Shown here: one piece after another, positions 15,174 to 35,729 of the stretch
Layout of the letters: every line of letters begins with the position of its first letter
How positions within the stretch are numbered: position 1 is the stretch's first letter
Assembly: GCF_017939745.1 (NCBI RefSeq)
Contig: NZ_JAGKQQ010000001.1
Span: forward strand, 1,364,001 to 1,428,000
Direction of reading: 5' to 3'
Source: Gemmata palustris
GTDB taxonomy: Bacteria; Planctomycetota; Planctomycetia; Gemmatales; Gemmataceae
DNA: 64,000 nt
Position numbers and translations under genes: made by a program
Notes under the pieces: model-generated
What the model was told of the DNA's origin: nothing
What the model saw: only the letters and a program-made list of their open reading frames with translations
Databases searched by the model: none

Positions 15174-15740
15174 GGTTGACGGCCCAGTGGAACCCGATGG
15201 CCCCTTTCACGGTCGCTGGGTCGGCCGCCCGTCGCTGGCATCGGCGGACGACGCGCCGTCGCAGGTCGGCGAGGTGAGCGAACGTGTCGTTGGCCAGCGC
15301 CTACCGAACCCGCACCCAGAACGGCTCGACCGGTTGCAGTTCCGGCGTGCAGGGGGGAGGACATGCAGCCGCACGTCGCCGGGGACCGCCAGGCGCTTGG
15401 CCCGATGCCACCCGGCGTTGTCCACCACCCGGACCACGATCTTGGTCCGGCCCGGGTCGGCGCGGGTGGCGAACGCCTCCCGCGCCTCGGCCATGTGCTC
15501 GGTCTTCACGCGGGGGAGGATCACCGTGAACGTCCCCCCGGTGGCCGGGCGGGCGATAATATACACAAAGGCACTAGCGCTTGGTCCGGCCGCACGACCC
15601 CGGTCGGCATCCCTTGCGCCACCACACCCGGCGCGTGATGGGCTTCAATCCGAGCCGCGCCTCGTCTTCGGCCCACACCTCGACGGCCTTCCCGGGGTTC
15701 GCCGCCCGCACGCGCCTTACCGGTCGTCGTAAGTTTTTTT

Positions 15741-17415
15741 CTATGCCGGCAAGCCTGACTGGTGGTGCAGAAGGCGTTGAGTGATGATGGGTTGCGCCTC
15801 CACGGAGTGTTCGTATGGCCCGTCGCACCTGTCGTCCCGCGCCAACCGCCGAGCAAACGCTGACCCCGGTCGCCACCGCGTGTGTGGCGTGCGGGCATCA
15901 CCTGTACCTCGACTACTCCAACTTCCGCACCGTCACCACGCTGGCCGGCGTCGCCCGGTACACACTGCGCATCGGCCGCTGCCGTCACCGCCCGTGTGAC
16001 CTGTATTCGGTCCCGTTCCGACCCGAGGCCGAAGGCCGAATCGCCCTCCCGCACCACGAGTTCGGGCTCGACGTCGTCGCGTACGCCGGCAACCGCCGGT
16101 ACACCGCGCACCGGACCGCGCCCGAGATCCACGCCGAACTCGTTGCCCGCGGTGTGGCCCTGTCAGTTCGCACGGTCACCAACCTGCTCCACCGGTTCGA
16201 CGAGCTGCGCACCTTGGGTGCCACCAACCCGGACCGGATGCGCCCGGCGTTCGAGAAGCAGGGGCGGGTATTACTCGCGCTCGACGGGCTCCAGCCGGAC
16301 GTCGGGCACGAGGTGCTGTGGGTGATCCGCGACGTGCTCAGCGGGCGTGTGGTCCTGGCCAAGTCGCTGCTGTCGGCGTGCCGGGCGGATCTGGCCGCCT
16401 TGCTGGCCCAGGCCGCCGAAGCCGTCGGGGTGCCGATCGCCGGGGTCGTGTCCGACGGGCAGCACTCGATCCGCAACGCGGTGGCCCAAGCGCTGCCCGG
16501 AGTGCCGCACCAGTTGTGCCAGTTCCACTACCTGCGGGAGGCGGCCGGGCCGGTTTACGAGGCCGACCGGCACGCCAAGAAGGAGCTCAAGAAGCGCGTC
16601 CGCGGGGTGCGCGAGGTCGAGCGTCGAGTCGAGGACCGGAGCGATGCGGAGGCGGAGGTCGTGCGCGGGTACTGTTCCGCGGTCCGCAGCGCGCTGACCG
16701 ACGACGGGCGTCCGCCGCTGGACTCGGCCGGGCTGCGGCTGCGCGGGCGGCTCGACGCGGTGGCGGGGAGCCTGAAGAAGCTGGGCGCGGGGAAAAAGGG
16801 GCGGGCCGGGAGCTGACCCGGTTGCACGGAATGATCACACGCGGGCTCGAAGGGACGGCGGCACTGTTCGCGCCGGTGAAGGAGCTGTTCGATCGGGTGT
16901 ACCGGGTCGCCCACGAGCTCTCGAACTACGACGGCCGGACCGGGGCCGGGGTCCGCGCCCGGTGGGACGAACGGGTCCGGGAGATGGACGCGATGAGCCG
17001 ACAGCGCCCCGACCTGTCCGAGCCGCTGGATCACTTCGTGAAGGTGAGCCGCAGTTACGAGCCGGGCTTGTTCCACACCTACGACGTGGGGGACCTGCCG
17101 CGGACCAACAACGACCTGGAGCAACTGTTCGGGAGCCACCGGCACCACGAGCGGCGGTGCAGCGGTCGGAAAGTGGCGTCGCCGGGGCTGGTCGTGCGCG
17201 GGAGCGTGCGGCTGGTGGCCGGGCTGATGACGCGGCTGGGCGAGGCGACGGCCGAGGAGTTGGCACCGACGTCGGTGCTCGCCTGGCGCGAGTTGCGAGA
17301 GGAGCTCGGGTTTCGTGAAGCGGCCCGGACCCAACAGCGGCAGTTCCGACGCGATCCCGCCAGCTACCTCAAAAGCCTGGAAAACCTGGCCCGCCAGTCA
17401 GGCTTGCCGGCATAG
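15741..17415 (+). mobile_element. Unassigned DDE insertion sequence with 22-base inverted repeats
   Basis: Perfect 22-base terminal inverted repeats lie at 15741-15762 and 17394-17415 (CTATGCCGGCAAGCCTGACT...). The transposase stop codon forms part of the right repeat. Both outer flanks are short T runs (left 15734-15740, right 17417-17422), compatible with insertion into an A/T run of the IS630 gene, so the exact target duplication cannot be read. The element is nested in the IS630 copy. Confidence 0.85.
15815..17415 (+). pseudogene. DDE transposase of the nested IS, two frames joined at GGGGAAAAAGGGG
   Basis: The first frame (15815-16816, 333 residues) has an N-terminal zinc-finger-like CVACGHH..C pair, a helix-turn-helix (ELVARGVALSVRTVTNLLHRF), the first catalytic block (LLALDGLQPDVGHEVLWVIRD) and SDGQHSIRNAVAQALPGVPHQLCQFHYL, typical of MULE/ISL3-like transposases. 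The C-terminal third (LTRLHGMITRGLEGTAALF...TNNDLEQLFGSHRHHERR) continues in the -1 frame from about 16795 to 17415. The switch occurs in a run of 4 G, 5 A and 4 G. This could be programmed -1 frameshifting, as in several IS families, or a damaging indel. I could not place it in a named IS family. Confidence 0.7.
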
Positions 17416-17987
17416 CTTTTTTCCAGGCTCGGCGCGTCGGGGATCGGCCGCGCTCGGATGGCTCGGTCGTGGCACCTGAGGAGAGAACCCCAACTCCACC
17501 AGCCACCGCCACCCGGTCTCGGAACGGACGGTCACCTGCCACCGCGTTCGGACGTAGAGAGCGACATTGGGACCGGTCCAGAGCCCGCCGCCCGGGGCCT
17601 TTTCTGGAGCGCCGCGTACAGCGCGCCTCGCCGCCGGGTGGTCAACTTCGGCTCGGCTCCGTTGCCCCGACGCCGATCCACCAGCCCATCGGGTCCGTGT
17701 TCATTCCAGTGGTGGAGGACGGCCCGGACCGTGACACCCGATGGGCCCACGAGGTTGCCGACTTGGCCCGACGTCCGGCGCTGACCTTCTCCATCGGCCC
17801 CTCGACGCGGTGGTTGTTGCTGTATCGAGTTTCATGATACCGCCGACGGCCCCCGACTCCAATCGGACCGGCCGATTGCAGATTTCGGGGGGTGTAGGAC
17901 TGGGTTTGCGTCTGGTCGGTGTTGGAACATCTTGCCGGATAGCAAATCACTCCGGATGTTCGCCCCAGGTGCAAGGCGGGACGGCCG

Positions 17988-28114: not shown

Positions 28115-29543
28115 TCATGCCGCCGGCGCGAGCGTAGTCAGTAGCAGTTCGCGGATGGGGTCAGGTAGTTTCTGAAGGGCCGTGCCGTCCCCGGCCTGTG
28201 GCAAAACGGCTTCGGCCCACAGCCACCGGCGGACGGCGCACAGGGCGTCGGAGAACGTGACCGTCGCCTTGCCCGGCCACGCGCCCGCTCCCGTTCGCTT
28301 CGCCGCCGGCAGCGCGTGGAACAGGAGCGCAACCACGGTGTACAGCCCGAACAGGCACGGGCCGGCACGCAGGACGGTGTTCTTGCACCACCCGCGCGTG
28401 GTCTCCAGCCCGAGAGCGGACCGGGCTTCCTGAAACGTAGTTTCAATATTCCACCGACCGCAGTAATGGCCGATGACGGCCGAAGGGGTCAGCTCCGGAG
28501 CGGTGGTGAAGAAGTACTCGTCGCGGTGCGTGCCGCTCACGTCCCGGACGAACACCCAGCGCAATGGGACCAGCCCCTCACCGGCCTTGTACCAATGCCC
28601 GGTGCCGTCGAGGGTCTCGACGCGCCGCTTCCCGCCCCCGTACCACCCGACCTCTGATCGGGCGAAGGCCGTGGCCGCGACAACGGCCTCTCGGGGCTGA
28701 GTGACTGTCCCATATGTGCGAAAAAGCCTGAGAAATCGTGGGTGACAACTCGAAAATACGGCGATTTCGAGGCATATGGGACAGTCACTTAGGGCGACGC
28801 TTGCCCTTAACCCGTGGCCGCCCCTTGCCCGTGTACGGCGGGGGCGGGTCGAACAGGTTGGCGTCCGGGTGCAGTTTGCTGACCAGCGTCAGCCGGGCAC
28901 GGTGGCGGTAACAGAATCGCGCCACTTCATGGGTGCCGTACCCCGAATCCCCAGTGAATACGAAGGCCCGATCCGGGAACCGGATGAGGAGCACGCGCAA
29001 CAGCCCGCACATGATCCGCGCCGGGGTCCGGTGCCGCCTGTTACGGGCGCGGTCGTCTTGGGCCGAGCGATACAGGTCGATGAGTATCGGCAGAGCCCAC
29101 GGGCGCGTCGCGAACGGGAACTTGACGAGGATGGCGAGCACGACCCACTTGTGCCCGTACCGAAATGCGGTGTAGCTGTGGGTCGAGCGCACGGCGTCTC
29201 GGTGCCGGGCCTTGCCGTACACGTTCGGCCCCTTGTGCCCATCGACGGTGTCGTCGCCAACCAGGCACACCGGCCCGTCGGGAACGAGGTGGTCGAGCAC
29301 CAACCGCATCAGGGCGCACCCGAGTTCGAGCCCGGACCACGGGGCCCGGGAGAGCACCCGCCGGTAGTCGGTGGGATGCCCCGGAGCCAGGTGCCGAAGC
29401 GCGCGCAACAGGTTCGCCACCGTCCGCCGCCCGGTCGTCACAAGTGCCCCGACCAGGAGTGTGGAGAACCGTTGGTACGTGGGGCTGGTGAAGTGCAACC
29501 CGAGAACCTGCACCAGGTCGTGTGCCTCAGGTGGTAGAATCAT
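28115..29543 (-). pseudogene. DDE_5-type transposase split by MITE copy 1
   Basis: The N-terminal part (29543 to ~28789) starts MILPPEAHDLVQVLGLHF and carries the first two catalytic blocks: CLVGDDTVDGHKGPNVYGKARH and FVFTGDSGYGTHEVARF. An 88-base MITE then interrupts. The C-terminal part resumes at about 28697 (PREAVVAATAFARSEVGWYGGGKRRVETLDG) and ends with the Glu block (GHYCGRWNIETTFQEARSALGLETTRGWC) and LLLTTLAPAA at 28115. Removing the MITE and one target triplet restores one frame of about 445 codons (KRRP-x-PREA). The copy is inactive as it stands. Confidence 0.78.
28701..28788 (+). repeat. 88-bp MITE, copy 1
   Basis: The 88-base unit begins GTGACTGTCCCATATG and ends CATATGGGACAGTCAC. 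It is inserted in the DDE_5-type transposase gene. Left flank TGA and right flank TTA do not match, unlike most other copies. Confidence 0.85.
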
Positions 29544-29637
29544 GGCGGCCGTCCGTGGGCGAGGACCACGGGAGCGTCAGCAACTCCATGATACTTCACC
29601 ACGGACGGCCACTGAGAATCGGCACCAGTCGAGTTTA

Positions 29638-29725
29638 GTGACTGTCCCATATGTGCGAAAAAGCCTGAGAAATCGTGGGTGACAACTCGAAAATACGGCG
29701 ATTTCGAGGCATATGGGACAGTCAC
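29638..29725 (+). repeat. 88-bp MITE, copy 2
   Basis: It has the same sequence and orientation as copy 1. The flanks are TTA on both sides (29635-29637 and 29726-29728). The right TTA is shared with the left flank of the adjacent IS5-family element. Confidence 0.85.
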
Positions 29726-29802
29726 TTAGTGACTGTCCCATAAGGGGCAGTTGGGGTGGGTAAAATGGTTCATGAGAACCCAATCCTACCCGAGCGATGT
29801 AA

Positions 29803-29890
29803 GTGACTGTCCCATATGCCTCGAAATCGCCGTATTTTCGAGTTGTCACCCACGATTTCTCAGGCTTTTTCGCACATATGGGACAGTCAC
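29803..29890 (-). repeat. 88-bp MITE, copy 3 (reverse orientation)
   Basis: Inverted relative to copies 1, 2 and 4. It has a perfect TAA duplication on both sides (29800-29802 and 29891-29893). Its position inside the IS5 element changes the start of the transposase. Confidence 0.87.
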
Positions 29891-30687
29891 TAAGCGACGA
29901 GCAGTGGAGGTTAATCGAGCCTCACATCCCGGTCTATCCGGGCGGTCGGCCCCGCACGACCGACCTGCGGGATGTCGTCGATGCCGTGTTCTACATCTTG
30001 CGCACCGGGTGCCAGTGGCGCTACTTGCCCAAGGACTTCCCGCCCAAGTCCACGGTCTGGCGGTACTTCGACGAGTGGCGTCACAACGGTACCCTCGACA
30101 CCATACACGACCTGCTCCGCAAGAAGGTCCGCACCCAGGAGAAGCCGTACGCGCCGCGCACCACGGCGAGCGTCGATAGCCAGTCGGTGGACACGACCTC
30201 CGGCGGCGAGCAGCGGGGCCGGGACAACGCCAAGAACGTCGACGGGCGGAAGCGCCACATCGTCGTGGATTCCTTGGGGTTGCTGCTGGCCGTGCTGGTG
30301 ACCGCCGCGAGCGTGGACGATGCCCAAGCCGCGCAGGAACTGTTCCCCCGCTTGGAGGGACAGCCGGTCGGCAAGGTGGTGCGGATGTACGCGGACAGCA
30401 AGTACCACAACTTCGCCCTCTACGCGTGGGTCGAGGACAACGCCCGGTGGGATCTGGTCATCGTGCGCCGCCCGGAGGGGTCGAAGGGGTGGGTGAAGCT
30501 GCCGATCCGGTGGACCGTGGAGCGCACGTTCGCGTGGCTGGGCACGTGCCGGCGGCTCACCAAGGACCGGGAGGAAAGCGTGATGTCAGCGGAGGCGTTC
30601 ATCAAACTGGCCATGATCCACCTCATGCTCAACCGACTCGAACCCAAATATGCCGACCCCGAATTCCAATATCACAAAGCCGCGTGA
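29803..30687 (+). CDS. IS5-family transposase with a MITE-derived N-terminus
   Basis: The frame starts with GTG at the first base of MITE copy 3, which supplies about 30 residues (MTVPYASKSP... to MGQSL). The conserved transposase then begins with SDEQWRLIEPHIPVYPGGRPRTTDLRDVVDAVFYILRTGCQWRYLP. The catalytic residues are present: VDSQSVDTTSGGEQRGRDNAKNVDGRKRH, MYADSKYHNFALY and the Glu in RWTVERTFAWLGTCRRLTKDRE. The original start was probably ATG 29772 (MRTQSYPSDV, then SDEQW); after the 91-base insertion that start is out of frame. The catalytic domain is therefore intact, but only the MITE-borne start reads into it. Whether it is translated is unknown. Confidence 0.82.
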   Translation: MTVPYASKSPYFRVVTHDFSGFFAHMGQSLSDEQWRLIEPHIPVYPGGRPRTTDLRDVVDAVFYILRTGCQWRYLPKDFPPKSTVWRYFDEWRHNGTLDTIHDLLRKKVRTQEKPYAPRTTASVDSQSVDTTSGGEQRGRDNAKNVDGRKRHIVVDSLGLLLAVLVTAASVDDAQAAQELFPRLEGQPVGKVVRMYADSKYHNFALYAWVEDNARWDLVIVRRPEGSKGWVKLPIRWTVERTFAWLGTCRRLTKDREESVMSAEAFIKLAMIHLMLNRLEPKYADPEFQYHKAA

Positions 30688-30712
30688 CAACCCCTTATGG
30701 GACAGTCACTCA

Positions 30713-31409
30713 GGTGTCCCAGCGCGTTGCCCAGCGCGGACGCCAGGAACGTGCGGTACTGCTCGGCGGTCATGTCGTCGTTGGCGATCGTCAGCGCGTC
30801 GGCGGTCTTGCCCGAGTACGCGACGTTGTACGGCGGGTCCGTGAGCAGCGTGTCGGCTGGTCCGTCGGGCAGGAGCCGGGCCATGTCCTCGGGCTTGGTG
30901 GCGTCGCCGCAGAGGAGGCGGTGGCGCCCGAGGAGCCACAGGTCCCCGGGCCGGGTGACGGGCTCGGCGGGCGGTTCGGGCACGTCGTCGGGATCGCCGG
31001 TGAGTTCGGCGGGCGGTGTGGTCAGGAGCCGGAGCAGCTCGTCCTCGGGGAACCCGGTGAGCGACAGGTCGCAATCGGCGTTCTGTAACGCGACGAGCTC
31101 TTGGGTGAGCCGGTCGTCGTCCCAGGTCGCGAGGGTGGCGGTCTGGTTGTCGGCGATGCGGTACGCGCGGGCCTGCTCGGGCGTGAGCCCCCGGGCCACG
31201 TGCACGGGCACCTCGGTGAGCCCGAGCTGACGCGCGGCCTTATACCGGGTGTGGCCCGCGATGATCACGTCGGATTCGTCGACTACGATGGGCACACGCC
31301 ACCCGAACGCGCGGATCGACGCAACGACAGCCCCGACCGCGCCGTCGTTGGTGCGCGGGTTGTTCTCGTAGGGCCGGATCGACCCGACCGGGCGCATCTC
31401 CACGTCCAT
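30713..31409 (-). pseudogene. ParB-like/DNA methyltransferase, 3'-truncated by IS5
   Basis: The start is ATG 31409 with GGAGG 8 bases upstream. Residues 1-100 are a ParB/Srx-like nuclease-type domain (VGSIRPYENNPRTNDGAVGAVVASIRAFGW, VIIAGHTRYKAARQLGLTEVPVH). Residues ~155-232 begin an N4-cytosine/N6-adenine methyltransferase of the beta class, with catalytic DPPY at 191-194 (LLTDPPYNVAYSGK). The frame then runs into IS5 after GHL. The SAM-binding motif I normally lies near the C-terminus in this class and is lost, so the enzyme should be inactive. Full-length relatives have ~400 residues and are frequent on phages and plasmids, where they protect or mark element DNA. Confidence 0.82.
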
Positions 31410-31442
31410 TCCGTACCTCCGCGTGCTCGTGCGATGTGTGCC

Positions 31443-31477: not shown

Positions 31478-32004
31478 GGGGGTGGGGGATAAAATTTCGG
31501 GTCACTTTTCCGCGGAACGTGTGCGCGCACGTGCCCCCGTGAAAACGGTGGACGCCCCGGTTGCCTGTGGGAGCGAGAGGCGCCGTGCGGTGTTGACGCC
31601 CGGTCACCGCCCGGGACGCCACGAGCGGTGACCGGGCACCGGAGGTGTCGGCCGGACGCGCAGTGGCCGCCGTGAGCTCGGACGGGGCACCTGGTCCAAA
31701 GAACTCCGCGCGGCTTTGGAGCCGGGCCGGAACCACCAAGGTGGTTCCGGTGCCCGCTCGCGTTCCCGTTTCGCACCCGGTTGGGGCCGTGCCGAACCTG
31801 CCGGACCTTGCCGAACCTCAGTTTCACCAGAGGTTCGGCACCGTTAACTATTGCAGCCTCATGTTGTTACGGCGCGCGTGCCGAGCCTTGCCGAACCTTT
31901 TCCTGACCCCTACGTGTGCGCGGGCGCACGCACGCACGGGCGCAGGTGTACGGAGCCGCTTACCAAAAAGGTTCGTCAAGGTTCGGCAGACTCGTCACAA
32001 GTGA
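31478..32004. other. Noncoding hairpin- and iteron-rich region, left part
   Basis: Perfect 11-base hairpins lie at 31600-31635 (CCGGTCACCGC arms) and 31727-31750 (CCGGAACCACC arms). Beyond them, nonamers of the form GGTTCGGCA and close variants cluster at 31792-31845, 31880-31900 and 31970-31990. One 50-base block (31799-31848) is repeated in reverse at 32817-32866. No gene is visible. Together with the primase gene, this looks like an origin region. Confidence 0.6.
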
Positions 32005-32810
32005 CTGTGGGATCAGGTAGTGGCCCTAATGTCGGGATTCGTTGTACAGGCGTATGAAATACCACAAGGCGCCGAGGTGGTTCCTGGGGCACTTGGAGAA
32101 CGTGAGAGTCTTGCGCACGAGTCGGGCGCATCGTTGTCTCAGGGTAAGCCAGAACCGTTCGATGTGGGCGGTGAGGCCCGTGTCCTTGCCCACGGGTCGA
32201 TGCCGGGCGCGTGGGATCACGCCACGGTACGAGGCGAGGAAGTCGGTGTACACGGTGACCCCGGTCCGGTACCCGCGCGGGAGCGCGTCCCAGAGCCGTT
32301 GGGCCGTGGCTGCGGACCGGTCCCCGAGAACCATTGCGAGCACCCGCCGGGTGCCCAAGTCCAGGGCTACCCAGACCCAATGGACATCACCCTTGGAACC
32401 CACGAAGCTCCACAATTCGTCGGCCTCGATCACGACCGGGCCGCACTTTTTGGGGGCGGTCCCGGCTCGTGTGGGGTCTCCTGTCGATACAGCTCGTTGA
32501 CGAACCCTTGGAGCCACGACCGGGACACCCCGACGGCCCGCGCGATGGCCCGGATTCCCATGCGCTCGGCCAACAGGCGCCGCACCAGATCCTTCGTGGC
32601 CTCCGGGACCGGTCCGGTCTTCGGGTCCGCAACGAACCGCCGGTCGCACCCCCGGCACCGGAACCCCGGAGTGCCCGAGTGGGTGAGACCGTTGCGCACC
32701 ACATGGGTCGCACCGCACCGGGGGCACGGCGGAATCGGGGGACGAGGGGGTGTTGCGTCCAGCATCCCAACACTTTAGAGCAATCCCAACCGGTGGGCCA
32801 CTACCTGGGA
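32005..32810 (-). mobile_element. IS1-family insertion sequence
   Basis: The ends share CAGGTAGTGGCCC in inverted orientation (left near 32014-32026, right near 32794-32806), with GATC-rich outer bases. Size (~800 bases) and the two-frame gene with a slippery heptamer fit the IS1 family. Exact outer ends and target duplication were not resolved. Confidence 0.75.
32026..32765 (-). CDS. IS1-family transposase made by -1 frameshifting
   Basis: The first frame starts at 32765 (MLDATPPRPPIPPCPRCGATHVVRNG) and has two zinc-finger CxxC pairs and a helix-turn-helix (GIRAIARAVGVSRSWLQGFVNELY). At 32448-32454 the minus strand reads C CCA AAA, a standard X-XXY-YYZ slippery heptamer. The -1 frame then continues PKKCGPVVIEADELWSFVGSKGDVHWVWVALDLGTRRVLAM, VYTDFLASYRGVIP and the Glu block HIERFWLTLRQRCARLVRKT, and stops at 32026. 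Programmed -1 frameshifting between InsA and InsB' is established for IS1. Here both frames are otherwise intact, so I call the gene functional in principle. Confidence 0.82.
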
Positions 32811-33040
32811 TCAGGCGTTAACGGTGCCAAACCTCTGGTGAAACTGAGGTTCGGCAAGGTCCGGCAAGGGGCTGGAGGTTCGGCACCGGACCGGGATCAG
32901 TGGGGTACAGGATCGGTGTACTCGGCAAAATTGGTTGAAACGCAATATCCGGGGTCGACACCGCGTGGAATCGATCGCGGCCCCGGGTTGAGAGGCGTTT
33001 GCCGGTCGGAGCCGTTGTACGAGATGGGTCGGGCGGGGGC

Positions 33041-35729
33041 TCAGGCGGCCCGATGGCACGGATCCGCGTCGTCGATCACGGCCACCCGGTACGCGCTCCC
33101 CTTGCGCTCCTCGGTCCGCTGGAACACGGCCCCGCGCGTGCGCGCGAGCGGGAACCGGACGCCCACGAACCGGCCCGCGAGCATCCCCAACTTGGTCGCG
33201 GCGGCGCGCGCGGACAGGCCCTTGAGCTCGGTGGGGAACAGCCCGTGGTCCGCGGCCAGTGCGACCAGTTCCGCGGCGGTCCAGGTGCCCTGGGGGTGGT
33301 CCGCGAGGACACCCACGAGGTACGCGAACTCGCGCCGCGTGTCGTCCAGCTCGGCGGCCGCGGTCTCGGCGTTGGCCAGGAACCCGGGGAGCCCGGCGTG
33401 GGCCAGGATCCCCGCCCACGATCCGGCCCCACCCCTTCTTGTTGAACCGGGACGCCACGTCCGCCTCCGGGGCCCCGGCCGCGCGCCAGCGCGCGACCAT
33501 GCCGACCAGCTCCCCGAGCAGTTCGGCCCGGTAGTCCCGGGCGTACCCTTCGGGGTCCGGGTACGTGAACGCGCGCCGGGCCGGATCGCCCTCGTGGAAC
33601 AGGTCCACGAGGGCGCACCGGGTGACCAGGTCCCGGCTCACCTCGGGGGTGTTGGCGGTGAGGCAGAAGATGTGCGAGTTCTCGGCCCGGATCTCGCGCG
33701 AGTGCCCGAGGAGCCGGAACGAGAGGGTGGCGTCGGTGATCGAGCGCTCGAGGCACGCGGAGTCGATCCGGGCGGCGCGCCCCTTACCCTTGGCGTTGTC
33801 GACGATGATGGTGGTGGCCCCGCGGTGCACGACGGCCCCGAGGCGCTTCTCGAACTCCTCGTCGTTGGGGTTGTACGTGGCGGTTTCGGCGGGCCGGCCG
33901 TCGCGCAGGGTGGCGATGACTTGGGCGAGGACGGTCTTGCCCAGTCCGGGCTGGTTCCCGGCGAACAGGACCGCGGGCTTGGACCCGACGAAGTGGGGCA
34001 TGAGGATCGTGGTCAGGAGCACCCCGAGGTAGTTGGTGCGGTCCCCCGGGGTGCGGAAGCAGAAGTCCGTGAGGAGCGCGTCCAGGTGTTCGGTGCCGGC
34101 GCGCGGTTCGACCGCCGGCCCGGCGTAGTAGATCCCCGAGGCGGGATCGAACCCGGGCGGCGCGAGGCGCCAGTCGGTGGCGAACACGGGGTTCTGGGTG
34201 AACAGGGCGATGGCGGGCAGGCGCGCGGCCTCGCCGGGGTGGTTGAGCCAGGTGTTGGCATAGTTGACCGGGAGCGGCTTGTACTCGCTCCCCTGCGTGC
34301 CGACGACGAGGACCTCGGCGTGGTGGTTCAGGAGCCCGGCCAGTTCGGGCGCGGACAGGACCGGTTTGATGGCGGTTCCGGTGACGCGGACCAGTTGCCC
34401 GGCCCGGTGGTAGCACTCGCGCGTGCCGATCAGAACGTCGGTGAGCGCGCACATGGTGCGGGCCACCGGGGTGGTCGCGGGTTCGATCACGATCTCCGGA
34501 CGCGCCCCGGCACGGGTTCCTTCGTGCCCGGGCTGGTTCGCGTCGGGCGGGGCGCCCGGTGGTCCTTCGTGGCGCGGAGGGGTCGGGCGTTCCGCGCGTT
34601 TCTCGCGCCCCCGGGTCGTGCGCGTCAGGGGCGGGTCGTAGTGGTGCGGCTCGGGCGCGCCGATCACCTGTTTGAACGCGTGCCACCCGTGCCCGATGCA
34701 CCCGTTGTGGAAGCAGTGGGCGGAGAGCTGGCCGTTCGGGGCTTGCATGACGCACGCGTCGGGGGCCGCGTGGGCCGGATCGAACGGGCAGGCCGCGAGC
34801 ACGTACACGGTGCGCCCGCGCGCGTCGGGCTCGGGCTTGGTGCGGAACGCGAGCCCGCGGTCCGCGAGCCATCGGTCCACCATCAGGCGTGATGTGAAGC
34901 GCCCACCGGATGGTGCCGCGGCTCCCGCCGGAGGAGGTTCCGGTGCCGGTCCGTCGGTGGCGAGGTGTTGGAGGAGCGCGAGTGGGACCGGTTCGAGGGT
35001 GTCGGGGATCTCGAGCAGTTTGGCCCGGCGGTGCGGGCGCGTGGGGGTGCTGTCGCCCTTGCGCGCGAACGTGCCCGGGAGCTTGCAGATGCGCCCCGGG
35101 TTGTGGACCGCGCGGTCGATCGTCACGGCCGGGGTATCGAACTGTGCGGCCAGGGCCCCGAGGGCCCGCTTGACCAGTCCCCCGTCGTCGGCCGGCAGGT
35201 CGACCCGGTACAGCAGGTGAAACCCGTTGCCGCTGTCGGCCAGGACCGGGTCGGGCCACCCGCTTTCACGCAGGAACGTGCGCACCGACTGAGCGGTTTC
35301 TCGGGCCCGGGCCTTCTCATCGCCGGTAGCGCTGATGTGGGGATCGCGCACGGGATCCGCGTCGACCAGGAGCCAGCGCCGGGCGGTGACGTCCCTGTCC
35401 CTGGCGAGCTCACCCTCGCCGGCCCAGTCGGTGCGGTTCGCGCGCCGGGCCAGGAGGTCGGGCGCGAGCGGGTTGAGGGTGAAGTACACGCCCCGCGCGT
35501 GGTCCGTGAGGTCGAGCGCGGCCCGGGCCATGTCGGGCAGGTGGTCGGCGTCGAAGAACCCGGCCTCGGTGTGCGGTCGCCCGGTCCCGCGTCGGACCCG
35601 GAGGGCACGCAGCTCGACCACCTGTCCGGGCGCGACGAGAACCCGGTACCGTTCGGCCAGGAGCGCGACGGCCTCGTCGCGTGTGAACGCGCGGGGCGGC
35701 GGTTCGCCCGGATTTGGGGGTGCGGACAC
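33041..35729 (-). CDS. PrimPol/primase-helicase of the element, with one apparent frameshift
   Basis: The N-terminal region has an archaeo-eukaryotic primase-like core: acidic RRWLLVDADPVRDP (119-130), SGNGFHLLYRVDLP (166-179) and ICKLPGTFARKGD (~214-226). A Cys/His cluster (CPFDPAH..CVMQ..HCFHNGCIGHGWHAF, 314-352) suggests zinc binding. The helicase part has Walker A GNQPGLGKT (591-599) and Walker B TTIIVDNAK. At about 33432 one extra G in a GGGCGGGG run shifts the frame. Reading -1 restores a normal end with ELVALAADHGLFPTELKGLSARAAATKLGMLAGRF (a winged-helix-like tail) and a stop at 33041. Such proteins start replication of phages, satellites and plasmids. Confidence 0.8.

Follow-up and report, generated by a model that had tools for sequence, protein, structure and literature searches.

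Downstream of a PrimPol-helicase gene, the window (the whole 64-kb stretch of DNA analysed here, G000:C1:1364001-1428000) contains an array of short repeats. A preliminary description had proposed this array as a candidate replication origin. Is it an origin, and by which protein would its repeats be read? On the minus strand the genes follow the order serine recombinase, small genes including that of a sigma-like protein, PrimPol-helicase, array and ParB_N-DNA methylase. The features are listed in Table 1.

Table 1 Features of the array and its neighbourhood (positions in the window)
Feature	Position	Strand	Basis or remarks
ParB_N-DNA methylase, across the array from the helicase	30672-31412	-	PF02195
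Left outer cluster, four decamers	31790-31840	31790-31799 (-), 31799-31808 (-), 31809-31818 (-), 31831-31840 (+)	Site scan; layout common to paralog and relatives
Left spacer, 38 nt (48 bp start to start between sites)	31841-31878		GC 0.55, contains GTTAAC
Left inner decamer pair	31879-31898	-	Site scan
Mirror centre, 70 nt	31899-31968		GC-rich, alternating purine-pyrimidine runs, longest 15 nt
Right inner decamer pair	31969-31988	+	Site scan
IS1-family insertion element, 790 bp, within the right 48-bp spacer	32016-32805	-	DDE_Tnp_IS1, PF03400, E 2.6e-20
Right outer cluster, four decamers	32825-32885	32825-32834 (-), 32847-32856 (+), 32857-32866 (+), 32876-32885 (+)	Site scan
Helicase C-terminal winged helix, last 91 residues, frame differs from main ORF	33041-33316	-	ORFs, relatives, C-terminal alignment
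PrimPol-D5-type helicase, main part	33317-35729	-	ORFs, relatives; fold of a relative

For both the window and the genome the frequency of the repeats was investigated. Seven exact copies of GGTTCGGCA were found in the window, every one within 31790-32885, compared with 1.15 expected from shuffles (shuffle maximum 5). Copies with one mismatch were dispersed over the window (59 in total, 29.9 expected). Thus, the signal of GGTTCGGCA is meaningful in the cluster only. With the decamer AGGTTCGGCA and at most one mismatch, 12 sites were detected at 31790-32885, in four clusters and several in tandem at 9-10 bp. This agrees with the former count of about a dozen nonamers or one-base variants in four clusters, several with a 10-base period. 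Start and extent given before need small corrections: the array starts at 31790, and without the insertion its length is about 300 bp instead of 1.1 kb. In the two flanks without the insertion element (327 bp) the most frequent 9-mer occurred seven times, versus at most twice in 2000 dinucleotide shuffles. Chance clustering was excluded by these shuffle comparisons of window and flanks. The density elsewhere was assessed by searching the whole genome of 9.23 Mb. The tandem pattern AGGTTCGGCAAGGTNCGGCA, with at most two mismatches, gave six matches, four at the array of the window and two in one paralogous locus. An equal density of the nonamers elsewhere in the genome, a point raised in the preliminary description, was not observed, and a dispersed genomic repeat was rejected since the matches are confined to these two arrays.

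The sites are arranged as a mirror. With insertion and duplication discounted (798 bp), the spacings are 9, 10, 22, 48, 10, 80, 10, 48, 22, 10 and 19, which is near-perfect symmetry, and the strand order ---+--++-+++ is mirrored about the 70-bp centre. The 50-base inverted repeat noticed before (31799-31848 / 32817-32866) is real, with 98% complementarity, and represents the outer arms of this mirror. The GC content of the centre is 0.66 in the window and 0.74 in the paralog, and the alternating purine-pyrimidine runs of the window centre exceed those of shuffles (P 0.0006). The 48-bp spacers are less GC-rich than the centre and often contain TTAA. Between the array and the start of the methylase lie two strong hairpins, possibly a terminator, for which no counterpart was seen by eye in the paralog. 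Both had been described: the one near 31600-31635 was located at 31598-31637, and that of 31727-31750 is visible in the sequence as a palindrome.

The array is interrupted by the IS1-family element, as stated earlier. The limits in Table 1 are the best for this element, with an 8-bp target duplication, TGGGATCA, on either side (32008-32015 and 32806-32813). A gap of 155 bp separates the array from the winged-helix frame at its end. Compared with the paralog, a one-base length difference near 33.41 kb breaks the frame of the helicase; possibly this frameshift is a sequencing error. A further insertion, near 30.69 kb, truncates the methylase, whereas that of the paralog is intact. Because of the broken helicase frame and the truncated methylase, with the IS insertion also counted as decay, the copy in the window is probably not functional. 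The element looks like a relic of a terminase-bearing prophage lineage, or a reduced relative. Around transposase genes, three near-identical units of about 90 nt with inverted ends AGTGACTGTCCCATATG were observed (28700-28791, 29637-29729 and 29803-29893), resembling either the termini of insertion elements or a MITE family.

When the genome was searched at the DNA level, one further array came to light (G000:C1:1543891-1544082). It adjoins a helicase with 73% identity to that of the window, and the same type of methylase is located on its far side. The repeats of this paralogous locus (L010) are ACGTTCGGCA, with one base altered array-wide and unchanged positions and strands. A search for att sites of the paralogous element gave only chance repeats of 12-13 nt. 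At 15680-17470 (-) of L010 a protein with QueC-like and Trans_reg_C domains is encoded, reminiscent of anti-phage cargo of the QatC type. It is extremely improbable that the array serves recombination (as an attachment site) or packaging (pac), or that a dispersed repeat is found there by accident. The elements do encode serine recombinases or integrases, and a weak small-terminase match lies near the array of the paralog, but the recombinase genes are several kilobases off, the repeat is limited to two arrays genome-wide and the array trails the helicase gene in unrelated contexts.

Relatives of the helicase were gathered at genus, family, order, class and phylum level, from GTDB contigs and from viral contigs; those of the window genome are Gemmataceae. 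Gemmataceae loci amounting to 714 kb gave 18 strong two-strand repeat clusters. Sixteen of them have their centres 138-1363 bp past the helicase stop; the remaining two are of low complexity. Arrays adjoin the homologous primase-helicases of dozens of relatives, which come from the genome of the window, from Gemmataceae at large, from further Planctomycetota and from viral contigs. Relative to the helicase stop these arrays mostly lie at -117 to +480 bp, and in most close relatives from GTDB and IMG/VR the array is found at or right after the stop. The preliminary description had recommended a search for the same nonamers beside related primases. Geometry and position are kept there, and the letters are element-specific; besides AGGTTCGGCA and ACGTTCGGCA, the repeats include AGGTTCCGCA, ACGTTCCGCA, ACGTCCGGCA, AACGTCTGCA, ACTATCCGCAC, AACGTAGGGAA, AAGGTAGGGAA, GAAACCTGC and AGGTCCACCA.

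The spacing is nearly constant. In most of the family one half is close to '< 19 < 11 < 21 > 47 < 9 <', followed by a centre of about 55-110 bp and by the mirror half (Gemmataceae) or a variant right half (elsewhere). The commonest site count in the Gemmataceae set is twelve, six per half. In most elements tested, the centre contains alternating purine-pyrimidine runs of 15-38 nt, exceeding shuffles; such runs were absent in L049, L102 and L134 and weak in L098. The array as such, its geometry, position and conservation are established by these computations. No array was found with the helicase relatives L131 and L146. Three others had first been scored as array-less: an array of AACGTCTGCA type was found for L141 and L143, and a thin one of AGGTTCAGCA for L299, whose wing is RQG. 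Displaced arrays were detected for L147 (6030-6232, 3.1 kb from the helicase) and L148 (16788-16996, 7.4 kb from the helicase).

Several of these elements are phage-like. L158 encodes an integrase, a serine recombinase, a ParB-methylase and a terminase large subunit, L291 an HNH endonuclease and a terminase large subunit, and L295 a terminase large subunit. These three are prophages or phages. Among annotated phages and plasmids only distant relatives were found, with at most about 32% identity. Two further scans of viral contigs resulted in one weak addition (L219) and the order-level search in zero new elements.

The repeat sequence covaries with the C-terminal winged helix of the helicase, a domain evident from an alignment of the helicase C-termini. 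A residue of the recognition helix varies with base 2 (C/G), and the wing, RKG or RNG, with CGGCA or CCGCA. In the AlphaFold model of the L130 fragment, residues 451-464 are the probable recognition helix and residues 476-497 the wing strands. L098 and L100, encoded in one genome, have nearly identical C-terminal domains except for four residues of the recognition helix (4/15 changed versus 44/480, Fisher P 0.04), and their repeats differ in a single base, AACG versus AAGG. In the control pair L096 and L097, also of one genome, recognition helices and repeat are identical. L163 and L171 share the recognition helix and differ in the wing (14/50 residues of the reading region versus 105/889 overall, P 0.001); the repeats of the two elements have a common 5' half and different 3' halves.

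Before further elements were fetched, a rule was fixed for residue X in T[RK]xGX, with M, A or T for G at base 2 and I, V, K or R for C, and for the wing, with RKG for TTCGGCA and RNG for CCGCA. Among the elements fetched later, the wing part was correct in 9/9 and the helix part in 6/6 of the covered cases, the effective numbers being lower than 9 and 6 because L293 and L294 are closely related. The helix rule is silent on the residues of L290, L295, L296 and L300. L288 and L298, near-duplicates of known elements, and L148, found before the rule, are left out of this count. In the complete set, base 7 matches the wing in 22/22 cases and base 2 the helix class in 26 of 27 (G and S added post hoc), with L090 as the exception. 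The displaced arrays fit the wing rule (L148 with RNG and GTTCCGCA, L147 with RKG and GTTCGGCA), and L141, L143 and L299 are further fits. In a tree from which the winged helix was left out, base 2 changed at least eight times and base 7 at least five times. A phylogeny-strict test on well-supported branches gave four independent pairs for base 2 and three for base 7, too few for significance; nearly all pairings agree and zero point in the opposite direction.

This covariation also bears on the assignment of the array to another protein of the element. As an operator or partition-like site of the ParB_N-methylase or the sigma-like protein, the array would control the methylase operon or segregation. 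ParB_N domains are found in centromere-binding proteins, and the methylase is kept across the array from the helicase in several elements; hence its promoter is probably near the array. We nevertheless consider this function unlikely, as the repeat letters track the winged helix of the helicase and diverged helicases adjoin arrays, too. Furthermore, the flanking methylases of L163 and L171 are 90% identical and differ no more than the rest, whereas the wing is a hot spot.

No family was assigned to the primase-helicase by a Pfam search. Since sequence comparison of the helicase with the PDB gave no match, the fold was compared. The AlphaFold model of the relative L130 (pLDDT 87) has an AAA+ helicase fold with a C-terminal winged helix. 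Best matches with VIA-align were SaPI5 PriRep1 (7ola; Z 13.9), NrS-1 (13.7) and vaccinia D5 (12.9); papillomavirus E1 matched over the ATPase core with a Z of 10.9. The fold is thus closest to that of SaPI5 PriRep1, with 8-11% sequence identity in structural alignments.

The alpha protein of satellite P4 is a primase-helicase-initiator with cognate repeats in ori and crr. By description, the planctomycete system resembles it in this combination (PMC6092414). The P4 analogy drawn in the preliminary description is reasonable, but PICI/SaPI origins and those of D5-type self-loading helicases are closer in the evidence at hand. In PICIs the origin directly follows pri-rep on its 3' side, and an AT-rich region is enclosed by two sets of iterons (PMC6092414). 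The pri-rep-ori systems of SaPIbov1, SaPI5 (PriRep) and EcCICFT073 share with the planctomycete elements a primase-helicase with a C-terminal DNA-reading domain (PMC6092414, PMC7581432), an array directly 3' of the initiator gene and two sets of element-specific iterons around a centre. In contrast to the PICIs, the planctomycete centre is GC-rich with alternating purines and pyrimidines. The strict mirror spacing, the internal inverted site and the 48-bp spacers are further differences, and several of the planctomycete elements are terminase-bearing prophages, not satellites, in planctomycete hosts. For SaPI Rep and for the D5-type helicase Cch2 of SCCmec, the C-terminal domain reads repeats downstream of their own genes (PMC7581432). 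Cch2 uses three direct repeats of 5 nt, whereas about 12 decamers in mirror order are present here.

In pRN1 (BIP-1), AEP primase, helicase and winged helix are likewise combined in one protein, and an essential stem-loop element is located 3' of the replication gene (PMC4234260). Unlike the planctomycete array, this stem-loop has, by description, no conserved sequence and no iterons. An origin acting via such a DNA stem-loop, with the repeats as arms only and their base identity unread, would suit a large mirror repeat with hairpin-forming arms next to a protein similar to that of pRN1, which requires its stem-loop. This mode is very unlikely here, since tandem same-strand decamers at 9-11 bp are unnecessary for a stem-loop and all repeats shift at one base in concert with winged-helix residues.

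The arrays beside homologous helicases and the winged-helix covariation thus support the candidate origin. We consider it highly likely, by analogy with PICI, SaPI/Cch2 and pRN1, that a planctomycete element of the temperate-phage type, decayed here, has its replication origin in the array, with decamers read by the winged helix and two rings assembled. The widespread array family very probably serves planctomycete phages and their relics as replication origin. Points against the origin reading are the centre, which is not AT-rich, L090, which breaks the helix rule, L131 and L146 without array and the displaced arrays of L147 and L148.

From the precedents we infer binding of the decamers by the helicase, the number of rings, the melting site and replication. 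The PrimPol-D5-type helicase would recognise the decamers through its C-terminal winged helix, the recognition helix reading the 5' half (base 2) and the wing the 3' half. Two mirror half-origins, with six sites each in the window, flank the alternating centre, and this layout would let two helicase rings assemble head to head (face to face). The rings would open the duplex, perhaps at the 48-bp spacers with their TTAA; the left 38-nt spacer is a possible melting site. The fused primase would then start both forks.

More tentatively, and with slightly less than even confidence, the arrays may form a class of origins with a fixed template. Here, a six-site half (< 19 < 11 < 21 > 47 < 9 <) would be mirrored about an alternating, Z-DNA-prone centre, with one winged helix per decamer and a 6+6 double hexamer. 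A modular code, in which the recognition helix would set base 2 and K, N and perhaps Q of the wing would set G, C and A at base 7, might keep the replication of related elements separate even in one chromosome.

The new findings are that the mirror geometry is conserved and widespread in Planctomycetota and that the repeat letters follow two winged-helix positions. The co-change of initiator and origin specificity keeps sister replicons from interfering, and such changes are hard to study because intermediates are rare. With dozens of natural initiator-origin pairs of one geometry, one or two bases and few residues apart and some of them in one genome, the recognition code becomes directly testable. 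Six sites per mirror half offer a testable picture of how self-loading helicases of the D5/SaPI type place two rings. Furthermore, the array supplies a predictable origin for the little-known planctomycete phages.

Other arrangements were observed as well. With the more distant primase-helicases L056, L058, L112, L122 and L126, the gene itself contains compact +++--- repeats, confined to 60-125 bp of its final 100-180 bp; these may represent a second type of origin, built into the gene. L116 (6730-6930) and L108 (7802-7952, both oriented) carry two-strand arrays with AT-rich motifs just 3' of the primase gene; their primases are joined to ATPases that seem to be of another kind (in L116 a RecA-like one).
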